Shown here one piece after another: positions 20,029-61,033 of a stretch of 64,000 nucleotides of DNA (within the stretch, counting starts at the first letter, position 1; each line of letters opens with the position of its first letter). Origin of the DNA: Climacium dendroides (lineage: Eukaryota > Streptophyta > Bryopsida > Hypnales > Climaciaceae); assembly GCA_950106755.1 (NCBI GenBank), contig OX467089.1, forward strand, positions 6,574,501 through 6,638,500. The letters are read 5' to 3'. A model generated the notes under the pieces. That model was not told the DNA's origin, did not search any database, and was given only the letters and a program-made list of their open reading frames with translations. A program made the position numbers and the translations under genes.

Positions 20029-21329
20029 TCTAAAACCTAAACCTCGGCCTCTAAAAATTGTCTAATTGTAGTATGAGAGACCTTGGTCAAATGATCCGTT
20101 CTCATTGGCGGTTGACATTAGCAGCACTTGCAGGAAAATCCCATGTTCATCAACATACGATGGGGAGATACATTTGTAGATTAGGATTTCAAAATCGTAT
20201 AGCCCGTACCTCAATAATACTCATATGAATCACAGGCTGGCTTTTGCTAAGAAGTACCGCAATTGGATAGTGGATGATTGGAAAAGAGTGATTTGGACGG
20301 ATGAATCAAGTTTTGAGCTTGGAAAGAATCCAAGCGCATTTGAGTTTGGAGAAAGACTCATGAGCGTTATTCCTTGCAATGTCTTGCTCTTACATTCAAA
20401 TTAAGGAGGACTTCAGTGAGGGGGGGGGGAATTTACTGGATTTCACAAGAGTTGTCTAGTTTTTATGCTGCAAGGAGAGCGGATTGTAAGAGATTTTGTT
20501 AACAACGTCTATGAGGGTGAACTGTCTCGATTCTATTTCATGCACAACGAGCCTCATAAACTTACTCTCATGGAAGATGGTACTCCCGTCCATCACGGGA
20601 AAGCTCCGGCAATATAGCAGAGCACTCATGGTATGAAAAATTAGAATGGCCTACAAACTCCCCTAATTTGAACCCAATAGAAAACTTATGGCACATTGTG
20701 AAAGATCTCTTACACCACCATCAAAAACCAAAGAACAAGAAAGACATGATTCAAACCATTCAAGCAATATGGAATGATGTTTCTTTAGAGATACTACAAA
20801 CGTTGATTGTAAGCATGCCGAACTGAATTCAAGCTACAATTGCGGCCAAAGGTAGTAATACTAGATGGTAGACAATGTAGACTAGAAATGGTAAATGTTG
20901 TATGATCTCAAATTTTCAATGTAAATATTTTTTTTATATGTTGAATTACTCTTCTATACAATTCCAATGCAACTTTTGGTTCAGAAATTGGTTCATTTTT
21001 GCACATGATATGACAATTTGAAGTTTGTGAAATTTCAAGGCAACATTGTTGAAACTCAGAATTCGTAAATGAAGTAGACCTTACTATACAATCTTGTTTG
21101 GGGGGCAATCTAAGCATTTTAAAAAAAATAACTTGTAGAATTCATTTTTGAATGCATTTCTTACAATTTTTTAAAAGAAATTGTTAGGTATGGTTAAATT
21201 TGCTTGATAGACAAATCTCACTAGTAGGATTATTATGTTTCAATTCCATCTTGGAGCTATTAATGGTTTAGTTATTTCTTCAATCTTGAACGTATTTTAG
21301 GATTGTTACTATATAGACCACCTACTTGC

Positions 21330-22534: not shown

Positions 22535-23445
22535 CTATTGAATTTCTTGCTCTAAAATATTCAATCGCTGCATTCCAATGCCATGAACAAGTCGATGATG
22601 TGTATATGATGGAAGAGCCTTGGTAAAGAGATTAGTTAGATTATCTGTTGATATGACTTTCTTGATTTCCAATGTTCTATTTGTGATCAAATCATGCGTA
22701 TAACTAAAATACTTCAGATCAATATGCTTTGTTCGATTGCCTTTGACAAAACCCACTTGCATTTGTGTAACATATGCACTGTTGTCTTCATATAAGATAC
22801 TTAGAGATTCATCATAAGACAATTCAAAATTGGTTCGAAAAAATTTGTTCATAGATCGCAGCCAAATACATTCCCGAGACGCTTCATGAAGAGCAATGAT
22901 TTCCGAATGATTCGATGATGTTGCAGTAATTGTTTGCTTCAAAGATTTTCAAGATATAGTAGCTCCATGTTGTAAGAAAACATAACCCGTTTAAGGCTTT
23001 GATGTCGTAGGATCAGACATATATCCAACGTCGGCATATCCCACCAATATAGGATCTATCAATCAAGTATAGTATAATCCCAAATCTTCTGTTCCTTTAA
23101 GTAATAAAAAATGTATTTCAATATCAAAGTGTAGGGCGAGCACTATGCCTTGCAAGAACATTAACTACAAATGCAATATCAAGCCTCGTAGACGCAGCTA
23201 AGTATAAAAGTGCTCCGACCACAACGAGGTATGGATATTACTCACTCAATGTTTCTTCCTCCTCCTCGCAAGAACGATATGGATCATCATCTTTACTGCT
23301 ACGACACACCATAAGTGTAGAAAGTGGATAAGCATCTATCATATTGAATCTTTTTAGGATTCAGTTGATGTAAGTCGTTTGTGAAAAAAAAAACTGCCAT
23401 CTTTCAAGTGAAAAACTTGAAGACCAATGCAAAATGTAGTTTTGC
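22535..23445 (-). pseudogene. Copia RT C-terminus and RNase H fragment
   Basis: This is the 3' part of the copia polyprotein, downstream of the hAT insertion. The last intact frame (22535-22942) carries the copia RNase H signature: TATSSNHSEIIALHEASREC, WLRS, then EDNSA and KHIDLKYF, ending LTNLFTKALPS. RNase H degrades the RNA strand during cDNA synthesis. Upstream, 22943-23445 is RT thumb/connection sequence with several stops. The sequence flanking the hAT is contiguous in frame with that right of 36889 once the insert and one target duplication are disregarded. Confidence 0.88.
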
Positions 23446-23459
23446 CATGGTTGTCATAA
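23446..23459 (+). repeat. hAT left terminal inverted repeat
   Basis: CATGGTTGTCATAA, preceded by AGTTTTGC. It matches the complement of 36875-36888 except at the third base. Confidence 0.93.
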
Positions 23460-23584
23460 TGGATGGATGTCTGGTTCGCCCGTCTGTTAGAGGGCTCGCC
23501 CGTCCGATACAGTCAACACAAAGTTGACTTTATGAAAATGGAAAAATAGGCCACGTGGATGCCACTGGGATGCCACGTGGATTC

Positions 23585-23705
23585 TGGAATATGCAGGACG
23601 TGGATGCCATCATCAGGGCGCGGACGCCATCGTCAAGGCACGGACGCCATCGTTAGGGCGCGGATGCCATCGTCAGGGCGCGGACATGAACGCCAGGGCG
23701 CGGAT
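23585..23705 (+). repeat. hAT left subterminal GGGCGCGGAC repeats
   Basis: About six copies of (A/C)GGGCGCGGA(C/T)GCCATCGTC at roughly 21-bp spacing, including variants AAGGCACGGAC and GACGTGGATGCC. They are the complement of the GTCCGCGCCC repeats near the right end, so the two ends are symmetrical. Likely transposase-binding sites by analogy with Ac subterminal motifs. Confidence 0.8.
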
Positions 23706-24049
23706 GGTATTTAATAAATATACTAAATTAATATGCTTTTTACATATTTCCATTTCATATTTCATATTCCAAGTCACTACAACAATCCATATTTTTATTT
23801 AATGTTAGATCATATCACTGTAACACCCAAATAAATTCCATATCCTAATCAATCCATCATTCCATATTTTTGCAGGGTGTTAAATTACCTCATTATAAGT
23901 TTGTAACACCCAAACCACTTCCACGTCCAAATCACTCCACCAATTCACCATTCCATAAATTTTTTGGGTGTTACATTATATTACACTGACACCCAAAGCA
24001 TTTCCATATTCGAAAGCACTCCACCATTCATATTTCTTTTAATGTTAGA

Positions 24050-25080
24050 TTATATAACTCCTTCAAAATAATTGGCCACCCTAAAATAAATTGGTATGCT
24101 TTTCAAAAGCTTTGGTCACCCCATCTCCCCTTTTGGACATAGATTTTTAAAGCACACTTCCATTCCAAGTAACTGCCATTATTTTTTGGGCGGAATCATT
24201 CTCTTTCCTATTTTTTTGGCATCATTACCATAAGTCTTTTATTTGAATTCAATGCCACTTGTGTAGGGTGGAATGACTTTTTTTTCCTATTTTATTTTCC
24301 GTGATTAGCAAAATTGTTCCATCCCAAGCCGAGGCCATTTCTTTTTTGTTGATCATTCCCATTCCTTTCATTTTTTGCTCCATAGCAAAACTCTTTCATC
24401 CCAAGTGAATTCCATTTATTTTTTGTGGTATCCCAACTCTATTTGAACTAAATGGTAATTTTTTGGGGCTGTTAGTTGAAATCACTTTGACACACTATTT
24501 TTTGTGGGCTTATCTCTCTCACAAAATTATTCCAACCCAAGCCCAATCCATTTTGTATTTGTTCCATCATTTCCTTTTCTATTTTTTTTCCATTAATGAA
24601 CAAAGCTCTTCCCATCCCAACTCTATGCCATTCTTTTCGGTTCGGATCATTCTCTTTTTTTTTTTTCTTCATTCCTAAAACTCTCCCATCCCAACTCATA
24701 GTTATTCTTTTCTTTTCGAACATTTTTTTTTGAAAGAAATGGACAATTTTCATGTTCTAACATTCCAAATTTCCAATTTCTATTTTGTTTTGGTTCATTA
24801 ATTAGGAAGACTATTTTATTTGAACTCATAGTTCTGCTTTATTTGTTCAATATTTCCCTTCCCTATTTTATTTTTCTGATTCACTAAAGTTATTCCATCT
24901 GAACTCAAAGCCATTATTCTTATTTTTTTGTTCCATCATTCTCTGTCCTTTTATTTATTTATTTCATTACTAAAATTATTCCAATCTACTTCAATGTCAT
25001 TCTTTTTTTTGGTGGATCAATTACTTTCTTTTGGAGGGGGGGCTTCATTAACTTCTAGAATATAGACCTGTTCTTTTAAT
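24050..25080 (+). repeat. Degenerate 80-90-bp repeat array, kinase-gene side
   Basis: About ten loosely repeated units alternate a CCATTnTTTTTTGTTnGATC phrase, TTCTCTTTCCTATTTTTTT and CATCCCAACTCnAnG. The reverse complement of the same units forms the array at 30350-31125. It lies downstream of the kinase gene's 3' end. Confidence 0.75.
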
Positions 25081-25421
25081 GCATTGTTTTTTCCATTTGT
25101 TCAAAAAAGAAACAAAAAAAACATAGACCTACTGAAAAAATACAGTGTATGTATTTTTATACCAAACTACTGCATTCACTGTTTTTGTAGAGGTTTTACC
25201 ATCAACTCATAGAATTCATAAAAAATAAAAATGCAATGAGAAAGAACAATGATATGGCATATTAATATATTATGACATTTTAAGTAGAGAATACATCCGA
25301 TTTTATATATATTTGAGATGTTTCACAATTGCCAAGTATGTACACATGGTCCTCTACGAGGATGGTTTACCTTCTATGCCTGAACTATATGGTAAACTAC
25401 AAAAATTAAAAAAACTAAATA

Positions 25422-27002
25422 CTATGTACGATAACAACAATTTGGCATAGTCCAACAGTGGGGGGCCTTCTTCAATGTGTCCAGAACATCTTGCACTGTC
25501 GCCCTTTCACTCACATCATCTTTCATGAGGCTTCTCAATTTGATCCTGAGGTTCACATATTGCTCTGGATTCTTCGTTGTAAAGTATTTGGGGTCCCACT
25601 CCTCTTGCCAAATTGCAGCTGCTATCCATTCCGCCGCATATGCATCAGCTGCCATGGAGTACAAATGCGTTTTCTGCATGGCCTCAATTGAATTAGCTGA
25701 ACCTTGCTCTCCGTATACATAAAACAACTCAAGGGCTGCAAACTTTCGCTTTTTCTTTTCCTTCGCTAGGGTCTCCATGTTGGGAAAGCCATACCTTGAT
25801 GGCTCTTTCTCTACAACTCGGCTAGAAAGTCCCCAATCACATATCCCTATGTACACCCTGTGCTCTTTCCAATCATCAAAATGGAGCAAAACATTGGATG
25901 GAGTTATGTCGTTGTGCATGTACTGCGCATCGTGGCATTTCCCCACAATGACAAGCAAGGAGAGTGCCAAGTTCACTCGGTTCCTTCGGTAAGTTGCAAC
26001 CCATGCAAGCTCTTCTTTTGTCAACAGCGTACCTTGTTCACGCTCAATGTCATCCACATCCACTGATTCGTTCACTTTCGAATTGTACTTGGATAAGAAA
26101 GAAATTAGAGATCCTCCATTCCACCATAGGGTATAACCTTCCATCGTTTTAGGGTGGATGTACGCAATTCGAATGATGCCAGGATGTATCACTGGACACC
26201 CTCCCGCCTCATTGATGATTCCTTAGCGCTTCTCCTTCTCATTTGTGGTTTTCAAGCTCTTCCCAGCAAAAAATATCCAACTAGGAATGCTCTCAAGTTT
26301 TGTAAGCATCACCTTCCTCACGGTCCCATATGAACCAACCGCACTATTGTCCGGCATGGGGATGACTTTCACTATACTTTCAAGCCACTTGAATGTTCCA
26401 CTCACACAATGAGCCGTTATGGCGTCTTCTATTGTTGCTTTCCATGGTGCTTGTTTTTTCTTATGCGATGAAGAAAATTGTTGAGCGAAGTTTTGAATGA
26501 TTTTCAACTTTGCAACCACCTCTTTATTCTGCATGTCCCAATCGCTACCATCTTCTTTCTTCCCCATGTGGTAACACCAATTTGACACTATATTGGTTGT
26601 AAAGGCAACCACCTGTTTATCCAGCCAGTCTTGGTGCAACCAATAATCAGAGAAATTGTTGAATTTCTCTGATGATTCAAATTTGGACTCCAGCTCCCTT
26701 CGCAGGTCCCTCGTCAGTTTGTGGTATCCTTCTTCGTTGTGCGCCACATACTCCCTGGTCAACATAGTTGTACTTTGACGAGTGTAGAACACCACAACTA
26801 TTGCTCTCCCTTCAACTATGAATTCGTGTGGAGGCATATGGGGATTGGGTGCTTTCTTGCGCTTCTTTTGGCCCGATGAGGAAGGATTCGATGAACTTGA
26901 GGCCACCAATGTATTCGTGGATGGAATTACCATCTCACCGACGTCATCCAAATCTATGAACATGGGACGTTTCTCCGCCGATCCACTCCCTTCCCTTGTC
27001 AT
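25422..27002 (-). pseudogene. Protein-kinase-like gene in the hAT, one premature stop
   Basis: The frame starts at the ATG at 27002 and runs 526 codons to 25422, broken only by TAA at 26223-26225. Residues 1-210 are unrecognised and include a basic patch (GQKKRKKAPN). A kinase fold follows: glycine loop AVGSYGTVRKV, the Lys of FAGKSLK, an alpha-C Glu (NEAGG), hinge-like GYTLWWNGGSL, catalytic loop MHNDITPSNVLL, metal site ICDWGLSS and an AALE segment in the APE position. The catalytic Lys, Glu, Asp, Asn and metal Asp are present; HRD is HND and DFG is DWG. It would transfer phosphate from ATP to Ser/Thr or Tyr; the substrate is unknown. It shares a divergent promoter with the RING gene. A kinase domain is not a standard hAT component. 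Confidence 0.85.
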
Positions 27003-27193
27003 AATAAAGAATATTTTATACGATGGGCCTCCGTATCTCTCCCCAAGCACGGAAGTTCAAAAAAAATTAAAAAAAACCGGGTCACATATGCGGGCCAAGC
27101 CCACCACCCACCAAACTCACTCGCATAGGCCATTAGAACTAGCGTGTGAGGCATAGGGCGCGGACTTGGCAAAAAAATGAGGGCAGGGACTCG

Positions 27194-27203
27194 CTTTATA
27201 TAG
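27194..27203 (-). promoter_or_regulatory. TATA box of the kinase-like gene
   Basis: Minus-strand CTATATAAAG lies about 190 bp upstream of the ATG at 27002. It is the mirror image of the TATA box at 27500 for the divergent RING gene. Confidence 0.65.
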
Positions 27204-27499
27204 TCCCCCCCCTCACGTCCACGCCCCATCTCTTCGCGTCTCCGCCCCGTTCCCACACGTCCGCCCCCCAACCGCGATGACGTCCGCGCCCTGGCACGTG
27301 GCGTCTACGCCCTCACTTCACGTCCGCACCCCCACATCGATGGCGTCCACGCCTTGGTTTGACGTCCACGCCCCGGCTCGATGGCGTCCGCACCCCCGCT
27401 CGATGGCGTCCGCACCCCGCTCGATGGCGTCCACGCCCTGCCTTCACGTCCGCGCCTCCGCATCGATGGCGTCCGCGCCCTGGCGTACCCCACCTCCCG
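27204..27499. promoter_or_regulatory. Repeat-built bidirectional promoter core
   Basis: The 296 bp between the two divergent TATA boxes is almost wholly made of units reading GATGGCGTCCGC(A/G)CCC and GTCCACGCCCTGG in the plus direction, about 20 bp apart. The same GTCCGCGCCC core is found at both ends of the hAT. The arrangement suggests that one DNA-binding factor acts both on the ends and on this promoter. Confidence 0.7.
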
Positions 27500-27510
27500 C
27501 TATATAAAGT
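27500..27510 (+). promoter_or_regulatory. TATA box of the RING gene
   Basis: CTATATAAAGT lies 130 bp upstream of the ATG at 27638, leaving room for a leader of roughly 100 nt. Confidence 0.7.
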
Positions 27511-27637
27511 CGTCCCCGCCCCATTCGTCCCCGCCCTGCATACTCTCAGCCTTCCACCTCTTCATTGAGTTGGTTGTAAGCGTTGTGCAGGGTCCTCTTG
27601 ATTGCCACGTGGGAGATTTTCGATTTTTTCTGCAAAA

Positions 27638-29934
27638 ATGGCTATGCCACCAAGAATGACCAAGGAGGAATGAGACAAGACCCGACTTCGACCAGGAAAT
27701 AAACATCGTAAGCGACTGCATGTTCTACGTAATCCAGCCAAGCTTGCATTCAAGGGGTGGGAGGACGTGCCTGATCCATGGACCTTTGATGACTGCACCA
27801 ATTACATCGAGTGGTGCCACATTGACAAGGTCTTCCCAAAAGAGCGCCACAACTTCCACAGATGCTTCCACAAGGCAAATTTGAAACATTGCCTTGACGA
27901 GGAGTTCACGACCCGATGCATTGAGGTGGTCCAAGTGTTGTATGATGTCGCGACTGTCCCGCGCAATGAAGTGCATCTTTTCATTGTACGAGGGGTCCAT
28001 GCAGAGGTGAAGTTGAACAAGAGAGTGGATTGGTCAACTTTGAAGACAATGGGAAAAGATGTCAATATTCCTACCCCAGCAAATGGATTCATTCCAAGGG
28101 GGGTAAAAGGATACCCGAAAGGTGGTCTAGGGAAAACAACTACACAAGTTCAACCACCACCAACATATGAGACTCTGGACTCATCTGCGGATAGCGACTC
28201 TGATGGATCTCGTGTGGTAGTTCCAATTAGCCATAGAACACAACAACAACGTGCTAAAAGGAGAAGGGCTGCGCGTGCAACTGCTGAGGTTTACCTGAAA
28301 ATGTTGTGGAGGAACAAGTGCCACCTATGGACGAACCAATAGTAGGAGTTGTCGATGTTACAGCTGCTGCAAACCGAATTCAGAGTTTGCTGACCGAAGT
28401 GAATGACAAGAATGCGGAATTGCGTTCTTTGTATAATGATGTTAATAAATTGAGGGAAAAAATCCAAGAGAAGGACAACATCATCAATCAACAACAACGT
28501 GACATGGAGGCACTTCGACACACTCTCCAGGCAGCAACAATGGCCAATGCTAGTCAAGATCCACGAGGGGAAGCACAAGGGCCTTTGAATACTTCTCAAA
28601 TTCCATTGGAACATGCAGAAGTTGGTGCAACAATGAATACTCAAAATGATTCATTGTCCTTCAGAGAATTACCCACAAATGAAGTTGCAGCAATGTCTGT
28701 TGACCAAAGCACCCAACTGACGGACGTGCTTGCAAAGAATTTGAGATTGAAAAATCAATTGCATGTGTTGATGGAGCAATATTATCAATGGAAGATGGCA
28801 TGCGTCTTCAGTATTGACAGGACTAGGCAAATGGTGGAAGAATTCAAAAAAATTGACCACAATTACGGCGCAAACAATCAGGAGAGGGTTTTTGGATTGA
28901 CATCATGGGCCCTGGTGGATGATCATTTCAACATGGATGAAATGGCGATCATCGACAGTATTGGTCAACCAACAACCATCGATTGGTCCAAACATGGTTG
29001 GGATTTCAAGAATCAAGTTGGCACTGCTGTCGACCATCAGGGCAATCCATTACTACTGTGGCCAAACCCTTCAACCTTCGTGCATGATGGAACTACATGT
29101 CCCATTTGCCTTAATCCATTTGGCCCGGAAGGTGGAATGCACCTAGGCACGTGCGAACATTTGTACCATCCATTCTGCCTAATTAGCTTGATGATTGTTC
29201 GCCGACGTTGTTCATTGTGCAAGGCTCCTTTCCATGAGCATTTGTATGAGTTGTTTGGATTAGTTCCCTACATGCCACCGCATTGGGAATACAATGAAGA
29301 AAATGCGCCTGATCATTTGTCGAAGTGGAGAATAGACTTGGTATGGAATTAGAAACTGAACATCCATTCGTTGGGCAAACAACACCTTTGTACCGAATGG
29401 GGTTGGGAAACAGATCCATCTAAAATTGTCGAGGTGTGCCACCACTTGGTTCCACTAAAGGACAACTTCAGCCAAGGACGACGGAATTTCTTTTTCCAAT
29501 GCTTCAATGGGCATTGGAATGAGGCTAGACAATACTTCCAATTTGGCCCTCATCCTCGTGGATGGTTGTGGGGCGTTGATGGACGTTGCATTACTGATGA
29601 CCAAGGCATGCGTATCGGGGGAGACATTGACATGCCAGACCCAACTGAACTTGCACTACTATCAGAGTCAGAGTGGAGAGAAACCTTTCGAGATGAAGGG
29701 ATGGACTATTTGATGGAACAACATAGCCCAGGAACTCTACAATGTTTTGAGAGCCTCAAACAATCACAAATATTGAGGGCTATATTAGAGGAAGACGAAC
29801 CAGCAAGGAGAACCCGATCCGCAGTTCGTAGACTTCGTTTGGGCTCAGATGAAGACCTTCCAGTCCGCGCCGAGACACATGACAATGAGGCTGGACCAAG
29901 TGGCAATGCAAGCAGTCCAATGAACATGGACTGA
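27638..29934 (+). pseudogene. Coiled-coil/RING-H2 protein gene in the hAT, degenerate
   Basis: The reading frame begins at ATG 27638 and would encode about 765 residues. It is broken by TGA at 27671, a one-base shift between 28288 and 28342, and TAG at 29350-29352, but each side reads on in register. The N-terminal 230 residues are unrecognised and end in a basic nuclear-signal-like stretch (QQRAKRRRAAR). A coiled coil follows (28360-28540, ending EKDNIINQQQRDMEALRH). A RING-H2-type finger lies at about 29097-29225: CPIC, then CEHLYHPFC, then CSLC. The last 190 residues are acidic/basic and end near GPSGNASSP. RING fingers recruit ubiquitin-conjugating enzymes, so an E3 ligase role is inferred. 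It pairs divergently with the kinase gene. Confidence 0.85.
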
Positions 29935-30283
29935 GTACAGTTTAGAGTGTTTTAGCTAGGGAGCTTAGGTTTTCTTAGAAGACTTACTTTCCTAGCATTA
30001 TATAGGCTTATATACTTTCCTACTTTGTATTACACTATGCATATGAAATATATATGATTTTGTTTTGAATGGTTTTGCCCAAAGTGACTTCGTTCATTTT
30101 TTGCACGTACTCATTTGGAACGACTTGTCCACTTCATACATATTAAAATTGTTTATACCATGAAATTAAATGTCATTGAATTGGAGTACAATTCATTCCT
30201 AAACACAAATCAATGAATAAAATTAGAAAACGACCACAAATGTCATTTACTAGGAAAAAACGCTTTTGAAATGTTGTTAATGG

Positions 30284-30342
<59 letters not shown>

Positions 30343-30349
30343 AATTAAA
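29935..30349. other. 3' flank of RING gene with (TA)27 microsatellite
   Basis: No gene is present. A perfect (AT)n run of about 54 bp spans 30286-30339. An AATAAA-type signal occurs in the flank (ATGAATAAAATT near 30215), which could serve polyadenylation. Confidence 0.6.
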
Positions 30350-31125
30350 TAAAGAATGATGGAACCCAAAAAAAAATGGGATGAAAATAGTCAAATAGGT
30401 ATGTATTTAATTGCAAAATAGGCAAAGGAATGATGGATAAAAGCCAAAAATTGGGAAGGAATGGTATACAAGAAAATGAATGGCATTCGGTTGGGATAGA
30501 ATAATCTTGCAAATCAAGGCCCAAAAATAAAGAATGGGTTTAGGGAATACAAAAATTAAATGGCCTTGGGTTGAGATGGATCTATTTCGCTAATCAATGA
30601 TTTACAAAAAAAAATGAATGATTTACAAAAAAAATTAATGGCATTGAAGTGAAATGAAAGAGTTTTAGGAATGAAGCAAAAACAAAAAAAGGAAAGAGAA
30701 TGATGGAACAAAAAAATAATGGCTTTGAGTTGGGGTGGAAGAACTTTGGAAAATAAGCAAAAATAAATTAATGGCTTCGGGAGAACTTCAGGAAATAAGC
30801 AAAAATAAAATAAGGGCTTTGAGTTGGGAATTTTGGAATTGGGATCAATGGGATGGGAGAATTTTAAGAAATAAGCAAAAACAAAATAGAGAAGGGAATG
30901 ATTCAACAAAAAATAGGAAAGGAAATGATGGAATAAATAAAAAATGGCATTGACTTAGGATGGAAGAGTTTTAGGAATATAGCCAACAAAAATAGGACAG
31001 GGAATGATTCACCAAAAAAAAATAATGACAATGAGTTGGAATAAAAGAATTTTAGGATTGGAGTAAAAAAATAGAAAAATTTCTCTAATTAATGAAGCAA
31101 GAAAAATAGGAAAATAATGATTTTA
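30350..31125 (-). repeat. Degenerate 80-90-bp repeat array, RING-gene side
   Basis: Units of TTGAGTTGGGATGGAAGA, then TTTAGGAATnAAGCAAAAA, then GAATGATGGAACAAAAAAnA repeat about nine times. They are the reverse complement of the array at 24050-25080, so the kinase/RING pair is enclosed by inverted arrays. Noncoding. Confidence 0.75.
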
Positions 31126-31499
31126 TCGAGTACAATACATTTTCAAAATATTGCCTAAACATTTCCAAAACATTTCCAAAATATTTCCTTAAAGTGTTCT
31201 AACCATTTCCTAAATCAAAGAATTTAGAGTCTTTGTTTTACACCCTAAAGTATATGTTGGTTCAAAGTAGTTTGAAGTGTTAGAAGAAGTAAGGAGAAAC
31301 ATTTTCCACCACAACGATGGGACATGGTCTTCCATGAAGTTTCTTCCAAATCTTAGTCCGTGGAGCTCTTAATTTGGTCTCTTGCTTTCATTGACTTGTC
31401 GGAATCTAAAACAAGTTGTTGAGGCTGAAATTAATGGTTCACCCGCTCCAAGAATAGGACGGATTGAAGGATGTTAAGCCCAAGCGCATTTCAAAGTCA

Positions 31500-31830
31500 T
31501 GCCTCCTGTGCTAGACGACCACGTCCACGCCCTGGAATCCGCGCCCTAACTTCAAGTCCACGCCTTGGAGTCCGCGCTATGACTTCAAGTCCGCACCTTG
31601 ATTTGCAGTCCGCACCCTGATTTGAAGTCCACGCCCTGAAGTCCACACCCTGACTTCAAGTCCACGCCCTGGAGTCCGTACCCTGACTTCAAGTTCACGC
31701 CTTGGAGTCCACACCCTCACTTCAAGTCCGCGCCTTGACTTGAACTCCAAGCCATGGAGTTTGTGATTCAACTGCGCTCTCTCAAGTTCCGCCTCTGTGA
31801 ATTGTCCGCTCAGGAGTCCGCGTCCTGACA
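31500..31830 (+). repeat. Internal GTCCGCGCCC island 1
   Basis: More than a dozen copies of (A/G)GTCC(G/A)C(G/A)CC(C/T)TGACTTCA at 20-25-bp spacing. The orientation matches the right end of the hAT and is opposite to the left end. It marks the outer edge of the kinase/RING cassette. Confidence 0.8.
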
Positions 31831-32049
31831 TAGCCCATTCAGCGAAAATGTATATTTAACTTTGTCAACTTCTCTCCCCACAAATATGAGGAATCCAAAA
31901 CAAGGTGTGTCAGCATTTAATGTTTCCCTTTCTCCATGAAAAGGAGGGACACCATCTTCCAAGACCATTAAATAGGAAGAAGGAGGGATCCCATGCCGGA
32001 GGTCAACCTACTTTTCAGTGCATCCCCATGTGCGCACCCCCATTTCTGT

Positions 32050-32285
32050 TATGGTGTCACTCCCTAGAGTCCGCGCCTTGGAGTCCGCGCCCTGTTCTGG
32101 AGTCCGCGCCCTGAAGTCCACGCCCTATCATGACGTCCACGCCCTGAAGTCCGTGCCCTACCTTCCTGTACCCGCCTTGATGCCAAGAATTCAGGTGTGC
32201 GTTGTGAACGTCCTTCACAAATTCTCAGATTGTGCGTCCACGCCTTGTTGGCATGCACAGCGATGAAGTCCACGCCCCTGCATTC
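32050..32285 (+). repeat. Internal GTCCGCGCCC island 2, upstream of transposase
   Basis: About ten copies of GAGTCCGCGCC(C/T)TG and variants end just before the transposase TATA box at 32291. Placed like promoter elements, they share their core with the terminal repeats. Confidence 0.8.
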
Positions 32286-32290
32286 CCTAA

Positions 32291-32300
32291 GTATATATAG
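32291..32300 (+). promoter_or_regulatory. TATA box of the hAT transposase gene
   Basis: GTATATATAG lies about 260 bp upstream of the ATG at 32560, immediately after the GTCCGCGCCC island. Confidence 0.6.
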
Positions 32301-32559
32301 AAAAGGAAGACCGAGCATTCCCCACATTTGTCACCTGGCCTCTATTTCTTGGACTTCAATTCATTTTGAGCTCCTTGTGAGTCTACTTGGGTGGCAGATG
32401 GCCCTAGTTTGTTGTTGAGGTGATGTCAAAATCAGTTTAAGCAGTGGATTAGCGCTAACTGTTGTTACTAATACTTTGTTCGGTATATCTTTGGTCTTTT
32501 TAACTTCAATACAAAGGAGGAGGAAGACATTTGGAATTATTTGTGAACGGCTGAACGCA

Positions 32560-35500
32560 ATGGCAAGTCAAAGGAAGCAGACCAAGGAATGGGAATCGTG
32601 GCTAAACTTTGCGGAGAAATGGGATGAAGGTGATTTGTGTTTTTCGTGCTGGGACCTTTAGTTACAAACGTGAGCGTGCTTTTGCACATTTCGGATATGG
32701 CTCAAAATCAGAGAGGTCAATTTGTCAAAGTATGCCTCATGCAGTGCGCTATAGATTTGCCAATTGTGCAGGTTTTGTCCCGCTACGAATGGATCCTGGG
32801 GACATGTATGAAGGAGAACCAATTCAAAGTGCGCCATCTAGAACAACTCCACTTGCAAGTTCAAGTGAAGCCACAGAAAATGAGGTGACGGGTGGGGTCA
32901 ATGGTGGGAGAGCGGAAGAAGGGGCAAATGTTTCAGAAGGAAATGAAACCCTACAAACGTCCAATAGCCTTGCTGCATCAAATTCTACGAGATCTAGATC
33001 ATTACGTCAGCAGCGCATGGTGGACGCATTCAACATTGCAAAGAGGAAGGAGTTGGATGAGAAGTGGGCAAGTTTTTTCTATGAAGCAAATGTGCCATTT
33101 AATGTGGCAAGGCATCTAGCCTTCTTCGAGGCTGTGAGGGCAACTTCATTGGCGAGGTTTGAATATAGTCCACCTTCTTACCATCAGTTCAGGACTAATT
33201 TAATTGAACCGAGGAGGTTGCAAATTGAGAAGCAGATTGAAGAGAAGGTTGGTTTTGCTGTGAAGCACTACGGGGTGACGATATGCAGCGATGGTTGGGA
33301 TGATGTCAATCGGAGGCCTCTCATGAATGTGATGATGTCATGCCCCGCAGGTGATGTATTTTTGGGGTCGATTGATACTACCTCACAAAAGAAAACCATG
33401 CACTATATAGCGGACCAAATGAAAGTGTACATTGAGAAGGTGGGTTCCAAATATGTGATACAAGTGTGCACAGATAATGCAGCAAACATGCTTGGGGCAT
33501 TGCAAGACATCACTCGAACATACCCGCACATTTTTGCGCAAGGTTGCATGGCACATGCATTGGATCTCATGTTGGAAGATTGGGCCAAAATCCAAGAATT
33601 TGCCGATTTGATTGTCAGGGCAAAAAGATTGTGCCAATACATTCGAAACCATCATGTGACCATGTCGGTTTTCCGTGAGTTGAGTCCGAATCTGCAACTC
33701 GTAGTGCCTACTGAAACCCGCTTTACTTGTAATTTCCTCATGTTGCAACGCCTGGTGAGACTCAGAGCAGTCTTGGAGCGGTTGAATAACCACCCGCGTG
33801 TTCTAAATTACTTTGATACCTTACGGAACGAACAAAATGGCCCGCAGTCAGCTACCGCTGCACGTAATGTCAGAAACACCATTCAAGATGTGGCCTTCTG
33901 GCAACGATGTGTGAATTACGTGTATATGACTGAAGACGTATTGAAAGCTTTGCGTGTGTTTGATGGACGAGAACCAGCCATGGGTCGGGCGTGGTTCGTA
34001 ATGCACAATTTGCGAGGGCACGTGTATTCTTTAAGAGAACCACCTTTCAGCTTACGTGATGACATAGCGGTCACTTTGGAAGAATCTTTCAATGAAAGGT
34101 GGGAGATGGCTTTTGAAGATATACACTACGCTGCGGCCCTTTTGAATCCATACCTCTTGGATAATGTGGCGCTCAGGGTGGATGGAATTGCCCTACGTGC
34201 ATTGTACAAAGTCATCCGTAAGATGGCAGATTCAGTGGGTGTGGATTTCGATGATGTGCTGGCGGAATTAACACAATTTGAGGAGGGTACTGGACCGTAC
34301 AGTGCAGCTGAGACACCCAACATCCGTGTGACACAAATGCTTCCCCACCAATGGTGGCACAGGGTTGGAGATCAAGCTCTTTCTAAAATTGTCGTGCGTC
34401 TTTTATCCCTCACATGTTCCGCAAGCTCTTGTGAAAGGAATTGGAGTAACTATTCATTTGTTCACAATAAGGTCCGAAATCGATTAGCCCCCGAAAAGGC
34501 AGAGTCATTGGTATATATTTATACCAATAGCCGTGTACTTCAGCAACGACCAGGAGCCGATCCAGTTCGTTGGTATGATGCAAATATATACTCGGAGGAT
34601 TCTGATCCAGATGCCCTTGGTCCAATCCCGGTGAATGAACACAATCGGGAATTCGACGCAATGCAAACAGAGGAAGAAGAAGAGGTTGATGGAGAAGCCA
34701 ATCTAAACCCTCAAGAGTATCCGGCAAACCCAGATCTTTGGAGGCGAGGAGCCGATCACCTCGAGGAAGCGAGGAACTACTATGGAGAGGAGGAACTCCT
34801 TCATGGTCGTTGGGGTCCTTGGGGGCCACCCATTCCACCCAATCCACGTCGCCATCCTTCACCTCCACTTCCTCAAAATGAAGGGAATGCTGAAGTCCAA
34901 GCTTTGTCGTCTTCTTTAGAGACCGACAATCCAAATGACGATAACGTCGATGATGGTATTTCCCATAACAACAACGACGATGATGACAACCTCCCTCCAA
35001 GAAATGGCGGTGGAAATGGAAATGGTGGTGGAAATGGAAATGGTGGTGGAAATGAAGATGGCGACGGAAACAGGGGGAGGAATGCAAATCCAAATCGTGG
35101 AGGATCTTCTCACAATCGAGATGGCAATATAGGGCTTATGGGAGTGAGGCCATCAACTCGTAACATTAGAACTATTCAAGGACATCATGACAGAAACGTT
35201 AGAAATGCAAGAGTGGCACGCCCTATTGCAAGAAATCAACCGGATGGTAATGTGAGAAGGCCTTTTGATCCAGAGCGTGTGGACCCTAATGATGTTTTTG
35301 CATTTGTGGACCCTGCAGAAGACCTTGTCCGTGTACCTGCTCCAATTGCGGGCCATCCTACTATTTCAGAGCAAGGTACACAAACGCCACATTCCGTAGA
35401 CCCATCTTCAATAACAACTTCCAATGCCATCTGAAGACCTTCTCAAGAAGGGTTAGGCTCAGTGGGAAATGTTCATTTGACTCCTCAAAGCGTTTCACAT

Positions 35501-36130
35501 GGTACTACTAGGGGTAGACCACCTATAGCTCCTCGGCCCCCCGTTCGTCATGAAGTAGGGCAATATCAACAAGGCCGTGGAAGGGCTGGAGGCCGTGGGG
35601 GGACTGGAGGGACTGAAGGCCATGGAGGGATTGGAGGGACTCGAGGCCGTGGAGGGACTAGAGGCTGTGGACAAACAGAAGGTCAACAAATTGGAGAAGC
35701 ATCATCATCAAGGCCTACTAATCGTCCACTTCTCGGAATTGGGGCAAGAGATCCAAATAGGGTGGTAGAACCGTTCCTAAGTACATACGTACCAAGACCT
35801 AGTGGGTCAACCCCGGCATTTGTTGTTCCAACAATTACAATTCCAGGTGGGCCCACTATAAATTCAGATGTAGAAGATCCCCACGTACAACGACATAAGA
35901 GATTGAAGCGCAAACGTAGTCAAGGTCAAACTACTGTAGAACTTCGAAATGAAAACTCGGAAGTTGAAGGACATTGGACCACAGACAATGGTGAAGCAGA
36001 AGATGAATATGATAGCAACGAAGATGCCCATGACGAGGCACCTGAGGATGATGATGTTGTCATTCGAGATGCTAATGCAGCGGATCCAGGTGCCCAAGAA
36101 GTTCGTAGGTCAAGTCGTTTGAATAATTGA
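32560..36130 (+). pseudogene. hAT transposase, BED-DUF659-dimerisation type, broken
   Basis: This would be the element's cut-and-paste enzyme. The ATG at 32560 opens MASQRKQTKEW and a BED zinc finger: Cys at 32638 and 32647 in one frame, His at 32687 and Cys at 32723 in the next, so a small indel lies inside the finger. The long frame then runs to TGA 35432-35434. It holds a DUF659/RNase H-like core with SDGWDD, CTDNAANM and CMAHALDLML, and the hAT dimerisation domain with SSCERNWSNYSF, NKVRNRL and AEKS-like spacing. After the TGA the same frame stays open to 36130, adding a tail of about 230 residues with Arg/Gly repeats (GRGRAGGRGG) and an acidic end. Gly-Asn repeats precede the TGA (near 35005-35060). 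Its termini are the natural substrate. Confidence 0.92.
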
Positions 36131-36529
36131 GGTTATAGAGTTGCATCGATGGTAGATCTCGGGTCTTTAAGAGTTGAAGAGAATTGTAGCAATTGGAAGA
36201 AAGATGGACGAGAAGCCAAAGGATTGTCTTAGATAACCTATGAGAAAGTGGGCGTATTTTGGAAGTATAGATTCATTGTATTGTTATTGTACTTTGCAAT
36301 GCATGAATTTTATAAACAATTTTGGTTATTACAAATATTGCAGCCTACTATTATTTTTTTGCATTTTTGTATTTGACGTGCATGTTGGAAATATTGGTGA
36401 GTACAATCATGTAAAATATATTGTAGTTACTGGTTCTTTTAAATGCAGTGGGGTCATTACCTTGTTCAAAAAAAATATGTATATATATTACATATATTGT
36501 AGAACACATAAATAAAATCCACCATTACC

Positions 36530-36735
36530 TGATTACCCGTCCGCACCTTGTCTATGACGTTGAGGTCCGCGCCCTCATACTCACGGTGAAGTCCGCGCCC
36601 TAAGTGTACGAGTCCGCGCCTTGACGCTGAAGTCCGCGACTTGATAGCACAAGTCCGCGCCCTGACTTCACGAGTCCACGCCCTGATGGTGGCACGGTGA
36701 CGTCCGCGCCCACACATGATGTCCGCACCCTAGAT
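36530..36735 (+). repeat. hAT right subterminal GTCCGCGCCC repeats
   Basis: About nine copies of AGTCCGCGCC(C/T)TGA and variants, in inverted orientation relative to the left subterminal cluster. The 395 bp between the transposase stop and this cluster hold no gene. Confidence 0.82.
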
Positions 36736-36874
36736 TCGCTGTTTGAGGTGACGTGTCATTCAAAAAAATTCCACAACTTTGAAAAATTAAAGCCGTCCAA
36801 TTGGTCTGGACCGTCCGTCTGTCCGGTCCGGTTTGCCCGTCCGTCCAGGACGTCTGACGACCCTAACTCGCCCG

Positions 36875-36888
36875 TTATGACAACCCTG
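36875..36888 (-). repeat. hAT right terminal inverted repeat
   Basis: TTATGACAACCCTG, followed by the duplicated AGTTTTGC. The complement begins CAGGG, the common hAT terminus. Confidence 0.93.
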
Positions 36889-37900
36889 AGTTTTGCCAAG
36901 TAACTTCATTTCGAATTCACGAACAAAAAGTTGAGTAGTTGTAGTACAAGCGTCTTTTGTCCCCACAAGGTTTAAGTCATCAACATATACTGCAATAATG
37001 ACAAAATCAAATTTGTCTTGTTTGATAAAAATACATGAAAGTAATGAATCATTTGTAAAATGATTCTTAATAAAAAAATATCAAATACATTAATACCACA
37101 TCAACCCAGATTGTTTGAAATCATATAATATTCGTTGTAATTTGACACCACGATGTTCGCCTAAAATTGGTGTAACTTGGGTTGTAGAGTCAAGTCCTTC
37201 TGGATCTTTTATATAGATGTCAATATTCAATGAGCCATATAGGTAAGCAATGACAACATCCATAAGATGCATCTCAAGTATGGCATGCACAGCCATTCCA
37301 ATAAAATATCAAAAAGTAATGGAATCCATAACTGGTGAGTATGTGGAATCATAATCAATACCAAACTTTTGTATAAATCCTTGAGCAACCAAGCGCACTT
37401 TGTAACGGATAATTTGACCTTTGTCATTGTTTACACACAAATACTAGTTTGTATCCAAGAGGTCGAGAAGGAAGATTATTAACAATTGATCCAAAAACTT
37501 GCCTTTTACATAGAGAAACATACTCTTCCTCAATAGCAATTTTCCACTTCAATCAATCAGGTCGATGCATTGCCTGTTCAATAGTATTTGGCTCAGGGTC
37601 ATCTTTCTCGTAAGAAGATGTTTCTACCATCATAAAAATGAATGAATTATCAATATCAATTGTTGCTCTATCCCATATATTACCAGTATCACAATACATT
37701 ACAGATAACTCTATATTCAATTTAAACTTTTCTGTATCAATTATAGTAGTAACATTTGATGTTGATGGAGAGTCTGAAGTAATAAATCCTTTAACATTAG
37801 TAGTGGTAGCTGAAGGCATAGAAGGGTCAATAGCTTCAATAGTTGCCTTGCGTTTACGTGATTGTTTATCTGGTCCACAAGTCCGTTTGTTCAACGTTTG
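36889..37900 (-). pseudogene. Copia reverse transcriptase, N-terminal and palm part
   Basis: Minus-strand RT copies the element's RNA into DNA. The catalytic YVDDLN motif is encoded near 36975-36990, about 90 bp before the hAT insertion point. Upstream, 37090-37430 contains the copia RT phrases around LKIQ/YLYGSLN and the end of the fingers region. Several stops and shifts break the frame. The target duplication at 36889-36896 reads in frame with the RT fragment at 23445 and below. Confidence 0.8.
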
Positions 37901-41591: not shown

Positions 41592-44500
41592 TCATACTGC
41601 AAACTTTTCCCAATCAACTATACTATGATTGTTTGGTTTGATATGTTTCTTTTCATTTTGATGATGCAATAAATATGAAAACAATTGAGTCTCTTTTTCA
41701 GAATATGGAGTGCCTTTTGCTATAAATGATACAATTGCTGAGTCAATGTCTCGAAGACTTGGAAGTTGACTACAAAGTGGAGGCTGATATATAGATTCTG
41801 ATCTTAGTACTTGTAAAGCATTTGAATCAACCGAAGGCAATGATGTTGGTAAATCTGCTATAATTTGAAGTTCAGCTTGCATCTCCACCTCTTTAGTGAT
41901 ATTGGGATAAATATCACCTACAACATTAGAATTAGAAGACTGTAGGATTGAAAGTTGAGCTTGCAAATACTTATACCGTCTTCTAAGTTGTTCATGTAAA
42001 GATTTGTAAAATCCCAAAACACCCTTGGATGCTAAAGCATTCCATTGGAGCATTATAGAAACTTTCCAACGAATTGACTTTGACACAATTTGTTCGTCTT
42101 TTACCATAACCAATAGTGCTTCATCTAGCAATAATGTAGAGTATTGAGAAATTGAAGGTAGAACATTTGCCATAGAAGGAATACTAGTAATATCAAGGAT
42201 GGATATAGTTTCTTCTTCGTGAATGACATGTGATGTACCAACATCTTGCATAACTTGCGCTTCTTGTCTAAGATATGAAGTTATTGTATAAAGGGTGCTA
42301 ATAATGCTTGAAGTTCGTACTATACTTTGAAATGTAGTTTGGAATTGCACCATTGCTACCATATCAAGTAATTGTTGTTTTAAACTTTGCAATGGTTTAG
42401 GGCGCAAATAGGTCTTGAAAGAGAAATCACTTTGTCGAATGGCAAAAATGCATACATTCCAAACTCGAAAGAGTGCATTATAATTGAAACCTTGGAGTGG
42501 AAAATCTTTCAAATGAGAAAGTGGTTCTTCTGTAAAACAATGCATAGCAATAAATCGCAAAACTCGCCGTTCTAAAGGATTAAATATAGGGGATAGGCCC
42601 ATAATTGAATCCCATAGTGCAAGGCTATCAAAGGCACTAAATCTGTGATTGCTAAGTGTATTAAGAGAACCTAACCTTTTCTTATGACTTGATGCTGAAC
42701 CATGAACATGAACATCTGCAGTCCTTTGTCTCTTCAATGGATTGCCAATATTTTTTTGAATTGTGCTAGGAATAATATGATCTTTATTAGAATGAATGTC
42801 ATAGCTATTCAAGTCTAGATTCCCATCATGAACTTGTTGTATAGCATTAACCACTTGCTCTGCAATCGGATCAAATGTGTGGCTATCCCAAATAGCATAA
42901 TCAACTAGTGATGTAATGACAACATTGAAACCTTTATTTTGGTTAGACAAAACATGTGGCAATGTTGGCAATGATTCTGAATAGGAATTTGTGATGCCAA
43001 ATTCATTATCACAATCATGTAGTGATAATGGCAATGGGCAAAACATGGTACATATTCCATCTGTAGAAGACAAATTAGACCTAGAACGTAGAGCTAAGTC
43101 TTGTGTCAAAATAATGTGTATTGTTGAGATAGGTAAATATGCCCATTTATCATTGAATTGTACTTCTCCACGAAAATTCCACCCACATACTAATGCAGTA
43201 GTGAGTGCATCACCAAATGAAATCCCACATGACTCTGGAAATGAAGCTCGAAGGTGTCGCCAAAAGTTTTCATTTCGTGAAGAGCCACATCGTAATAAAC
43301 GTTTGAAAAAACGATCCAATATCTCATGTGAAAGCCCTGTGGGAGGATTCAAACAATTCAAAAAGTGTTTCTTTTGTGTCTCATGACATTTTTTTCAATG
43401 GCTCTCTAATAATATGTGTAGATGTTGGTAAGTGTGATTCAAATTTTTGAAAACTTTCAATAAAAGATGAAAGTTTTGCATAAATGATAGAACCAAAGTA
43501 TCGCAACTTTAATTCTTTGGCAAGGTCTATATGTTCTTCATTAGTTGTAGAATTAGTCCACCGGTGAGCAATAATTTGATGCCGTTCATTCATAACAGCA
43601 AATAGTCCATCTATAGGTGCAAATTTTTGACCTGTTGTAGGGTCATCAATTTGAATTCTAGCAGGTACATTATGATGATGATCTGCTACCAAATGTGACC
43701 CTATTAAACCACCTTCAAATCGTTGAAAAAACTTTTTTTGTTGACTTGTTATGGCTTCAAATATAGACGTTGCAATTTGCTTTGAGGGACTTGATGTCCC
43801 ATCGAATCCATTGCAATGTTGAAAAACCATAGGAAAATCTTGGAAAGTTTCTTTTACTGTAGTGTAAGAGTGGCTCCTTACTACCCCATTGTAATAATCA
43901 ATGTGTCCTTTCCATGCTAAGGACCGCAACATAAAGTAAGATGTTCGAGCATTTTTAACCATGGCTATAAAATCATTAATTCCTGCATGACTTGTTGTCA
44001 AATCATACATTGATTGAACTAAAGAAGTAGTCCAAGCACTTGTATGAAATATTTGCACAGGACATTGTAAAAATGCCTCATAAGGAATGATATTGTTTTT
44101 TAAAACAACATCTTCATCCATGATAGAAAATGTTGCACCACATCCATTTTTGGTTGCACACTTGTAAATTGTGGATGTGAAATAACAATTATATTGCAAG
44201 TCATGAACATGCCTTGGTAAAGAAAATTCTTTGAATCTCAAATAACCTTGTTTTTGGCAAGTTGGACATTGTTGTGAGCATATAGAAATGCCCAACTGTC
44301 ATTCTGGGTGCCAAGTACTCAAAGGCTTCAATAAATAGTCATCTAAACTCGGCCGCATATTCCACTTTGGTGTTGGTGAATAATTCCATAAAGGAATGTA
44401 TTTATGATCATATTGTTTGAATTGATTCAAAATAGCCTTGATTTATGTTGATTGTAATGCATTCAATGTACCAGAAGTTTTGTCACATCCACTACATTTT

Positions 44501-53303: not shown

Positions 53304-55592
53304 TTATTGGAAAATTTGGATATCGTTTTTGTAAAAATCAAACCATGTATCTTTAATCTTGTGATAGAATGCTTTATCAAATTCTTTTAACTCATTGAGT
53401 GCCTTTTGAAATATAGATTGATTTTTTAATAGAAATCGAGATATTGTTTGTATATTCGTCTCATCATTTCTCCCACGTGGTTTTAATGGCTTCATTAATG
53501 AGTCATTTGCAAAGAAAATTTTGTGATGACTTACAATCATTTGATAAGAACAAGTGATGTAACAAATCAGGTAACATACCGGGGATGCCGTATATGCCTC
53601 TACCACTCCTTTTCCAATATGAAGATCTCCTATATGCCACATAAATACAATTAGCTCTTTTAACTCAGAACTTGCTTTTATCCAAATGCTTTCAAATTCC
53701 TGTCGATTAATAAGAGTTTTGTATGGGAGATAAAATAAACCATCCATTCCCAAAAATAATTTACTGGTAATTTCATAGTGTTGTTTTAAAGATATCGGTG
53801 GATACGCAAAACTTCGTATATTGTACAGTATGTCTTTAAAGACTTTGGTTTTTAATTCTGAATTGGATCTTTGTTGGTTTTGTTTTGGATGTGATGATGC
53901 TTCATTTGTAATCTTTAGGTCAGTAGAGTTTTTCTTTGGAATATTAGGAATGTCGTTTTGAAAGGTATTACTTAATTGTTGTAATGTAATCCGTGTGACC
54001 TCATGGGAAGCCTCTTCTGCACAAAGAGCCATTTTCAGTCTTTTTATTTCCAATTTTAATTGTCTATTTTCTTCATATAAGTCCAAGTTTTGGTTAATTT
54101 TAAATTCTTGCTCTTTGATTGAATTACGGTCGATGTATTTTTGAGGATTCTTTCCTTGAAGAAATTCCGGTATTTCTTTCCATGATTGGTCTGCTCTTCG
54201 TGTTTCGGTAATTAAAATATCTTTTTCCTTTGGTCTGTTGGTGTGATGATCAATTGGGTTTCTCTCTCGTTTCGTGGTTTTAATATTAGGGTTTGATAAC
54301 CCTAATTTTTGGTGTGCACCTTCATCGTCAAAGTGGGCGATGTTTTGGGGCTGTCTTGAGCTTGTCTTCGTTGTATTGTCAGAGATAATTTGATAGTTTT
54401 CAGAAGAAATTTTTGGTAGTAATTTCTGTCTTTCGTTTCTCACGGTCCCGTCATTTGCCACTGATCTCTTCTTCCTTCTGTGTTCTTCTTCACGGTAGTT
54501 ATCAGTTTGTCTCCGCTTCTTGTTGGTGGTGTTTGGGGAGGGATTCGGTGCAGGATTTGGAGCCGTTGTTGGAGCTGGCTCCGCTGTAGCTGCTTTCGTC
54601 TTCTCCGAAACCCTTGCCACCGTTTCTAGCTTGGGATCGCCCTCGACGTCGCTCCTATCTTCCAACTCCTCGCCATCGTCCTCGCCTCCATCAACGCCCT
54701 CGATATCGCGTTCTTGCTATTCTGGCTGCTCCTCGTCGTCGTCTTTGCCACATCGGTTGTGCACGAGCTTCTCGCTGCGCTTGTTTCGCCACTTGCAGTC
54801 CGTCGCAAGCTCCTGATGTTGTTGTTGGGGTTCCTGCTCTTGGTCCTCTAGTGCTTTCGTAGCCTGGGCTGTCATTCGCCTCGTCGCCGTCGTTTTCTTC
54901 CTCCCCCGATCAGTGTTACCGCTGGATGTTGTTGCTGGGGCTCCTTCCTCCCTACTCCCGTCGTTGTAATTGCTAACTGCCGTAGTAGCTTACCCTGCTA
55001 AAGTCGCTCCTGCCGAAACTCTCGCTGCCAAAACCCTCACTACCGTCGGAACTCTCTTGGTTCTTGTTATCCGCCGTGCTATTGTCTGAAGTTGGTCGTT
55101 TCCGTCGTCTTCCTCCTTCGATTGCTTGGTTGCAACTGTTCGCATCAGTCCTAGTGGTGTGCTCTCCCATGATGCCTGGGTTTCTTTCTTCTGCCGTATC
55201 TCTAGGTACGCTTTGTTGGGGTTGTTGTCGTCGTGATGTTGTCTTCCTCGCGTAGTTTGTGCAGGAGTCGGTGTAGGGGTCGAAGTTGGAATTGTAGCAA
55301 CCACAGTAGTGCTTGCAGGTGTTGAAGTTGCGGTCGATGTGGTAGTTGGAGCGACCGTCGGGTTCGGAGCTAGCAGATTTGGGGCTGACGGGTTTGGAGC
55401 CGGAGCAGCAGCATCGTCGTTCGCTGGTATGTCCTCTTCTCGCCTCTTATCCTTTTCTTCTTCGTTGTTGAGTCTCTTCTTGCTCTTGATTTTGCATGTC
55501 TTGCTCCTCATCGTCATCGGCCTCATCTCACGGTCCTCATCCTCCTTTTTATGAATTGTCATGCGTTTCGATTCGTCTTTGTGAATTGCCAT
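53304..55592 (-). pseudogene. Gypsy 3' ORF-C, coiled-coil protein of unknown function
   Basis: A single frame of about 763 codons from 55592 to 53304, broken by TAA near 54987 and TAG near 54720, both readable as CAA/CAG after one C-to-T change. The first 250 residues are low-complexity: basic start, Ala/Pro/Thr-rich middle and Asp/Glu/Arg-rich stretches. A leucine-type coiled coil follows (EENRQLKLEIKRLKMA, near 54050). The C-terminal 180 residues look globular, with aromatic phrases such as SLKQHYEITSKLFLGM and KDTWFDFYKND. No family is recognised. It sits between integrase and the 3' LTR, where Athila-group elements carry env-like or accessory frames; I see no signal peptide supporting an envelope role. 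Confidence 0.7.
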
Positions 55593-55651
55593 GCGGTCTC
55601 GTCCTCCTCTTTCGCTTTGTTGTGGTTTTTCTGGTTTTCTTGTGGTTGCCT

Positions 55652-57013: not shown

Positions 57014-57269
57014 ATTTACTTTTGATGGTTTATCTTTCTCCTTACCGTGGTGTTTATTGTATTTATTCCTTTGTATGTTTTTTTTAATTTTGGATAAGTC
57101 CGATAATTTTCACTAAATAATTTGCAATAATGTATGGGTCAAAGTCTTGTTTGTTTCGGAAATTGCCATTGGTTTTTATTAATTGACAAGTAGTACTTTG
57201 GGCGTTATAAATCTTGGTAATTTGTGTGCTTGGTTGTGCATAATAGACATCAAGACATGGTTTTGGTAA

Positions 57270-60975: not shown

Positions 60976-61033
60976 CTTCATTGTCCGTTAATCCCTCTGT
61001 CCAGTCATAGCATTCAATTTGAACTGGTCTTTT

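Follow-up and report, generated by a model that had tools for sequence, protein, structure and literature searches.

The 13,443-bp hAT element described here (positions 23446-36888 of a 64,000-nucleotide stretch of the moss Climacium dendroides genome, contig OX467089.1 of assembly GCA_950106755.1, hereafter the window) very probably represents an old lineage of giant hAT transposons, whose full form carries its own transposase together with a protein kinase and a coiled-coil RING-H2 protein that are inherited along with it. The three genes move as one unit between hAT ends and are co-inherited across at least three subfamilies. The window copy itself (W) is dead, all three of its genes being broken. 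An earlier note on this DNA had claimed a single hAT element with terminal inverted repeats (TIRs), an exact 8-bp duplication and two large non-transposase genes, and the ends, the duplication and the empty site confirm it (Table 1).

Boundaries and target site of the element

The two 14-base ends (CATGGTTGTCATAA and CAGGGTTGTCATAA) are alike at 13 of 14 bases, and their core, GGTTGTCATAA, occurs without mismatch in the window only at these two places. The octamer forming the target-site duplication (TSD), AGTTTTGC, abuts both ends exactly; as it is common in the window (11 occurrences), the weight rests on this exact abutment and on the empty site. The latter was sought in the source assembly (412.6 Mb in 123 contigs, as in all our genome searches) with a 360-base query made of both flanks joined with one duplication, the best 40 of 121 candidates being scored. 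Two of the 40 are the half-sites of the window itself, and the other 38 are places elsewhere in the genome that match the uninterrupted junction at 79-92% identity, 33 of them stopping no more than 3 bases short of either query end. The presence of such empty sites elsewhere implies that the 13.4 kb were inserted as one unit. We read these matches as empty sites in further copies of what is probably a Copia element, into one copy of which the hAT jumped, the flanking reverse-transcriptase and RNase-H-like frames being likewise suggestive of the Copia type. Features typical of hAT elements include the 8-bp duplication, exact in W and in five further elements introduced below (A, C, D, H and S1), and short TIRs with CA/TG-like ends (S1 starts with CT instead of CA). 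Two AT-rich arrays, inverted relative to each other (24150-24960 and 30400-31110), stand on either side of the kinase-RING pair.

Table 1. Features of the window copy of the element (positions in the window).
Feature	Position	Strand
TSD, left copy, AGTTTTGC	23438..23445	
Left TIR, CATGGTTGTCATAA	23446..23459	+
Left subterminal GC-rich array; minus-strand sites of GTCCRCRCC type, two of them exact	23550..23704	-
AT-rich array of ∼80-nt units, inverted relative to 30400-31110	24150..24960	
Protein kinase gene of 526 codons, final stop excluded; interrupted in W by one premature stop	25422..27002	-
GTCCRCRCC array separating the kinase and RING genes, which are divergent; flanked on either side by TATA-like sequences (by eye)	27157..27480	
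RING-H2 protein gene; early stop, frameshift and internal stop in W	27638..29934	+
AT-rich array, inverted partner of 24150-24960	30400..31110	
GTCCRCRCC arrays 5' of the transposase gene	31516..32276	+
hAT transposase gene with a zinc-finger-like N-terminus and the domains DUF659 and Dimer_Tnp_hAT; interrupted in W by one frameshift and one stop	32560..36130	+
Right subterminal GTCCRCRCC array	36539..36729	+
Right TIR, CAGGGTTGTCATAA, read on the minus strand	36875..36888	-
TSD, right copy, AGTTTTGC	36889..36896	

Other copies and genome-wide linkage of the three genes

The exact 14-base end occurs 236 times in the genome, compared with 3 occurrences of a reversed control pattern. A search with the first 955 bases of the element (best 40 of 306 candidates scored) returned 37 of 40 left ends, W included, that start within 57 bases of the end and run to base 954 or 955, equivalent to about position 24400 of the window; the 36 others are 86-95% identical to W. 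Ten copies (A to J) were fetched, and eight of them contain remains of the kinase, the RING gene and the transposase. Six of the eight (A, B, C, D, E and H; 11.6-18.5 kb) have both ends as well, with exact 8-bp duplications in A, C, D and H and a duplication matching at 7 of 8 bases in E; for F and J the right end was not found within the 20 kb read. Of copy G, no more than the left 3.4 kb is seen, including a portion of the kinase. Copy I, a derivative of 3.4 kb, has retained both ends (the left one with 2 mismatches) and none of the three genes; in place of the duplication it has a 7-base match offset by one. The objection, anticipated in the earlier note, that copies with the same ends might all be devoid of the two additional genes therefore falls away, and the short non-autonomous derivatives foreseen there do exist: besides the deletion derivative I, the 100 listed of the 236 ends include four pairs of facing CATGG-type ends 303-305 bp apart, reminiscent of miniature inverted-repeat transposable elements (MITEs).

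The linkage of the three genes was assessed over the genome by searches with each protein, in which the best 84 of 729 candidates were scored for the kinase, 59 of 1211 for the RING protein and 42 of 931 for the transposase (excluding secondary pieces of the same place, which made up 4 of 88, 3 of 62 and 33 of 75 matches, respectively). Among the matches listed, 44 of the 59 RING places have a kinase at a distance of at most 10 kb, arranged head-to-head in 39 of these 44; of the other five, four belong to a repeated part of contig C39, and one involves a neighbouring RING gene of the second subfamily beside copy A. A kinase or RING gene is located between 5 kb downstream and 25 kb upstream of 33 of the 42 listed transposase places, the chance of such a neighbour being about 1% per transposase. 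The relative orientation is uniform among these best 42 of 931: the kinase is on the opposite strand at all 29 transposase places that have one, the RING gene is on the same strand at all 24, and the order kinase-RING-transposase holds at all 20 places with both. In C39 at 4.40-4.58 Mb, five kinase matches with identical stop patterns are spaced about 44.6 kb apart, with RING matches on both strands nearby; this stretch probably arose by tandem segmental amplification and has transposon remains within it.

Divergent subfamilies

Two further subfamilies with the trio were found, at 47-71% protein identity to W. S1 (C1:5.34-5.36 Mb) is a complete 16.93-kb element with the TIR CTAGGTTGTCACATTGG at both ends, the TSD CTCCCTTG, and the kinase, RING and transposase genes in the order of the window copy (52-57% protein identity); its ends were located by comparing S1 with S2 after a TIR-guided search had found none. 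S3 (C39:3.63-3.65 Mb) has a left end, CATGGTTGTCATAG, and the three genes, the transposase being partial; its right end was looked for and not found. In S2 the kinase and the RING gene are present, and neither a transposase (in the 20 kb read) nor clean ends were found.

The layout of S1 bears on the possibility, also raised in the earlier note, that the kinase-RING stretch (24-31 kb) is a later, independent element nested in the hAT. Its ends would be the AT-rich arrays, which do form inverted repeats around the gene pair. We find this hardly credible, as 37 of the 40 scored left ends continue at high identity to ∼24400, S1 has the same layout, and the promoter of the gene pair has motif arrays in common with the hAT ends (see below).

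The divergence between subfamilies points to a shared history of the three genes. Between W and S3, synonymous divergence (dS) is 0.71 for the kinase, 0.82 for RING and 1.09 for the transposase, and the ratio of nonsynonymous to synonymous divergence (dN/dS) is 0.22, 0.22 and 0.26, respectively. Between W and S1, dN values are 0.345, 0.398 and 0.323, and the proportion of synonymous differences (pS; 0.76, 0.74 and 0.69) is near saturation, with the kinase dS not computable. Overall, dN/dS between subfamilies is 0.13-0.26 where computable: the divergence of the three genes is parallel and has taken place under purifying selection. The protein trees of all three share the topology ((W,J),S3),S1, and in each of them database relatives branch between S3 and S1.

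Products of the three genes

The presence of a DUF659-type hAT transposase inside the element, another claim of the earlier note, was borne out by Pfam: the frame at 32606-35434 matches DUF659 (6.6e-37) and the hAT dimerisation domain (7.6e-8), the latter also being found in two relatives (3.1e-9 and 2.4e-9). No BED domain was matched by Pfam in W or in these two relatives. A CxFC...H...C pattern is common among the transposase relatives and is broken in W by the frameshift. Over 19 aligned rows, D290 and E610 are invariant and D229 is nearly so, in contexts that we take to be the hAT DDE triad. A relative with 25% identity is present in Chara braunii.

The RING gene product is a putative ubiquitin-ligase-like, coiled-coil RING-H2 protein. 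In the decayed window copy, the zf-RING_2 match (piece 28288-29352, plus strand; 3.7e-5) falls under the Pfam cut-off, which is exceeded in one of three relatives tested. All eight zinc ligands of the RING-H2 class are present: in 24 aligned of 34 relatives, C483, C486, C501, H506, C509 and C520 are invariant, and H503 and C523 are conserved at 90% or more. A profile made from the family matches the solved RNF24 RING (2.8e-7) and, more weakly, those of RNF38 and Arkadia.

Similarly, the kinase of W is under the Pfam cut-off (Pkinase, 6.7e-6, on piece 25422-26222 of the minus strand; no Pfam match on piece 26223-27056) and above it in three of three relatives tested. Among 16 aligned of 21 kinase relatives, K235, E252, H350, N357 and G378 are invariant and D352 and D376 nearly so, with HND and DWG as motif forms. 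The motifs of eukaryotic protein kinases are thus present, K235 presumably being the beta3 lysine, E252 the helix-C glutamate, H350/D352/N357 the HxD...N motif and D376/G378 the DxG motif. In a profile search the kinase superfamily was matched weakly, the best hits being CaMKII and VRK1 (about 1.5e-5 to 2.5e-5).

The relatives used above come from protein searches, with about 8000 candidates scored in each, which found 21 kinase, 34 RING and 29 transposase sequences; most of these 84 are on contigs of a few kb, and 7 are on contigs of at least 129 kb. Scans of IMG/VR with the kinase, RING and transposase alignments gave no confirmed locus in any of the three. Prokaryote genome contigs were scanned once, with the RING alignment only, which yielded a single locus (L035, see below).

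A shared type of site array

The motif GTCCRCRCC occurs 38 times in the element, compared with a mean of 0.3 and a maximum of 3 in 500 shuffles (100-base blocks), and twice in the rest of the window. With one exception, which lies inside the RING coding stretch, all occurrences (37 of 38) fall at either end of the element, around the starts of the kinase and RING genes (between or beside them), or before the transposase. TATA-like sequences come after the promoter arrays (by eye). In S1, sites of the form GTCNNNGCC are found at the same four places, some also elsewhere.

An analogous arrangement is seen on contig L035, which is filed under a cyanobacterial metagenome-assembled genome and is probably a eukaryote contaminant. 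It carries a RING relative (39% identical) as an uninterrupted 814-codon frame, preceded by seven sites of this kind and a TATA-like box, and has a candidate hAT-like right end about 0.5 kb downstream of the RING gene (by eye). The array-plus-RING design is wider than the genome studied here; the three-gene order is shown in this genome only. As a separate observation made by eye, a stretch near the hAT-like end is common to the left 1.9 kb and the last 0.1 kb of L035, in inverted orientation.

Taken together, the parallel divergence, the agreeing trees and the shared arrays make the kinase and RING genes look like integral accessory genes; being kept and inherited with the element, they probably help it and are not accidental baggage. 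One may ask whether they could instead be host genes captured as passengers, as in Pack-type or cargo-carrying hATs, and useless to the element. That DNA elements, hATs among them, can capture genes is well established, and the kinase falls in the general protein-kinase superfamily. ToxhAT, a 14-kb fungal hAT, reportedly moves a toxin gene (PMC12506042). Passengers of this kind would be neither co-inherited nor selected; here the trees of the two genes are congruent with that of the transposase across three subfamilies, with parallel divergence and similar purifying selection (dN/dS of 0.13-0.26 where computable). The occurrence of the same type of motif array in the promoter of the gene pair and at the element ends, and of a RING relative close to a hAT-like end in DNA of different origin (contig L035), also argues against the capture of passengers, which we regard as quite improbable.

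Several observations nevertheless weigh against an old, co-inherited trio. No copy with all three genes uninterrupted is present among the copies read; in copy J the kinase and RING frames are whole and the transposase is broken. Copy B has no matching duplication. Within the main family, dN/dS (0.44, 0.63 and 0.66) reveals little constraint, and the S1-S2 comparison gives 0.84 for the kinase and 0.93 for RING; weak constraint within a subfamily is, however, expected of decaying copies. In the RING tree the placement of S1 has moderate support (91/89), and the transposase tree is a quick version in which S3 fills 43% of the columns. Among the matches listed, no partner accompanies 9 of the 42 transposase places or 15 of the 59 RING places; as only the best-scored candidates were listed, these partners may be merely unlisted, and at the one transposase orphan read of the nine a RING gene is indeed located upstream. 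On L035, the 1.9 kb preceding the RING gene are devoid of a kinase, and no transposase lies between this gene and the end, so either the arrangement is not universal or L035 is a deletion derivative. Finally, stop-free full-length kinase frames were found at 5 of the 84 places scored (best 84 of 729).

These five stop-free frames could also be cited in favor of a different view, namely that the kinase and RING genes are selected for a host benefit (e.g. in stress or immune signalling), the hAT merely being their vehicle; purifying selection alone is silent on who the beneficiary is. On the other hand, copies decay after insertion, stops being present in most scored places, and both genes follow the transposase tree. 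The decay of the kinase and RING genes is chiefly by C-to-T and G-to-A changes (209 of 254 and 360 of 466 changes in the main family, respectively, compared with 632 of 1438 in the transposase). This excess would fit silenced, methylated, decaying copies, the transposase less so. We therefore consider selection for the host improbable, to about the same degree as the capture of passengers.

If the kinase and RING genes are accessory genes of the element, their arrangement allows a possible role to be outlined. A protein encoded by the element, probably the zinc-finger end of the transposase, would bind the GTCCRCRCC arrays, and such binding would couple the recognition of the ends to the expression of the three genes. 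Less firmly, the kinase and the RING protein, expressed divergently from one promoter array, might form a phosphorylation-primed ubiquitination pair that would act on the transposase, or on host factors for silencing or repair, by altering their level or activity, and would thereby raise the success of the element. Conceivable targets are the transposase (its dosage or timing), host repair factors and silencing factors. As judged from sequence, it is a tentative proposal, plausible if short of probable, that the transposon uses a kinase-ubiquitin pair of its own to time its jumps or to escape silencing, with the recognition of its ends and the expression of the three genes coupled through a single type of site.

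Other features of the window

Outside the element, a fragment at 20560-20826 (plus strand; NSPNLNPIENLWH...) reads, as we take it, like a Tc1/mariner-type transposase, unusual beside plant-type Copia elements. Two long adjoining frames at 41592-44298 (minus strand; 600 and 305 aa), with a cysteine-rich start and no Pfam match, look like an undescribed or decayed mobile-element protein. Long low-complexity frames of 470, 258 and 485 aa occupy 53304-57109 (minus strand), those of 470 and 485 aa being without Pfam match. A retrotransposon reverse transcriptase at 59624-61720 (minus strand; RVT_1, 3.5e-23), with an adjoining protease-like frame, is read as Ty3 type.

Relation to known elements and implications

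Autonomous hATs are usually described as one-gene elements of a few kb. The element described here resembles other members of the superfamily (Ac, Hermes and the DUF659-type plant hATs) in its 8-bp duplication, short inverted ends and subterminal arrays, in a transposase with DUF659 and a C-terminal dimerisation domain, and in the occurrence of a deletion derivative and MITE-like end pairs. In contrast to the usual hATs of a few kb, the copies read span 11.6-18.5 kb and contain, besides the transposase, two conserved genes that diverge from a common promoter array. The resemblance to ToxhAT is that of a large hAT with extra genes; the extra gene of ToxhAT is reportedly cargo, whereas the extra genes here are co-inherited with the transposase and are under selection between subfamilies.

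Multi-gene autonomous plant elements have accessory proteins, such as mudrB of MuDR, TnpA of Spm and VANC of VANDAL, and share with the present element the combination of a transposase with accessory genes and site arrays at the ends. To our knowledge, none of these multi-gene plant elements has a kinase or RING accessory gene. A ubiquitin-pathway protein of the element's own is a further point of comparison, RAG1 bearing a RING. Helitrons encode VTD deubiquitinases (PMC9741609), and RAG1 and RAG2 reportedly derive from one transposon (PMC4411706). These are mobile elements with their own ubiquitin-pathway protein, as here, but they belong to other element classes, and in them the ubiquitin enzyme is within the replicase or recombinase frame. 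We know of no kinase partner for either Helitron VTD or RAG1.

PMC6431247, which reviews giant transposons of eukaryotes, does not contain hAT, kinase, RING finger, ubiquitin or Academ as whole words in its main text. The open-licence full-text literature, so far as its texts were accessible, yielded no hAT with a kinase and a RING gene; repeat databases (Repbase) are outside this scope and may catalogue it.

That a hAT lineage has retained a kinase and a RING gene across deep divergence hints at the ability of a cut-and-paste element to evolve post-translational control of its own. With many copies, three subfamilies and stop-free kinase and RING frames, the lineage offers a tractable case, one that bears on how transposons manage their dosage, repair and silencing by the host.

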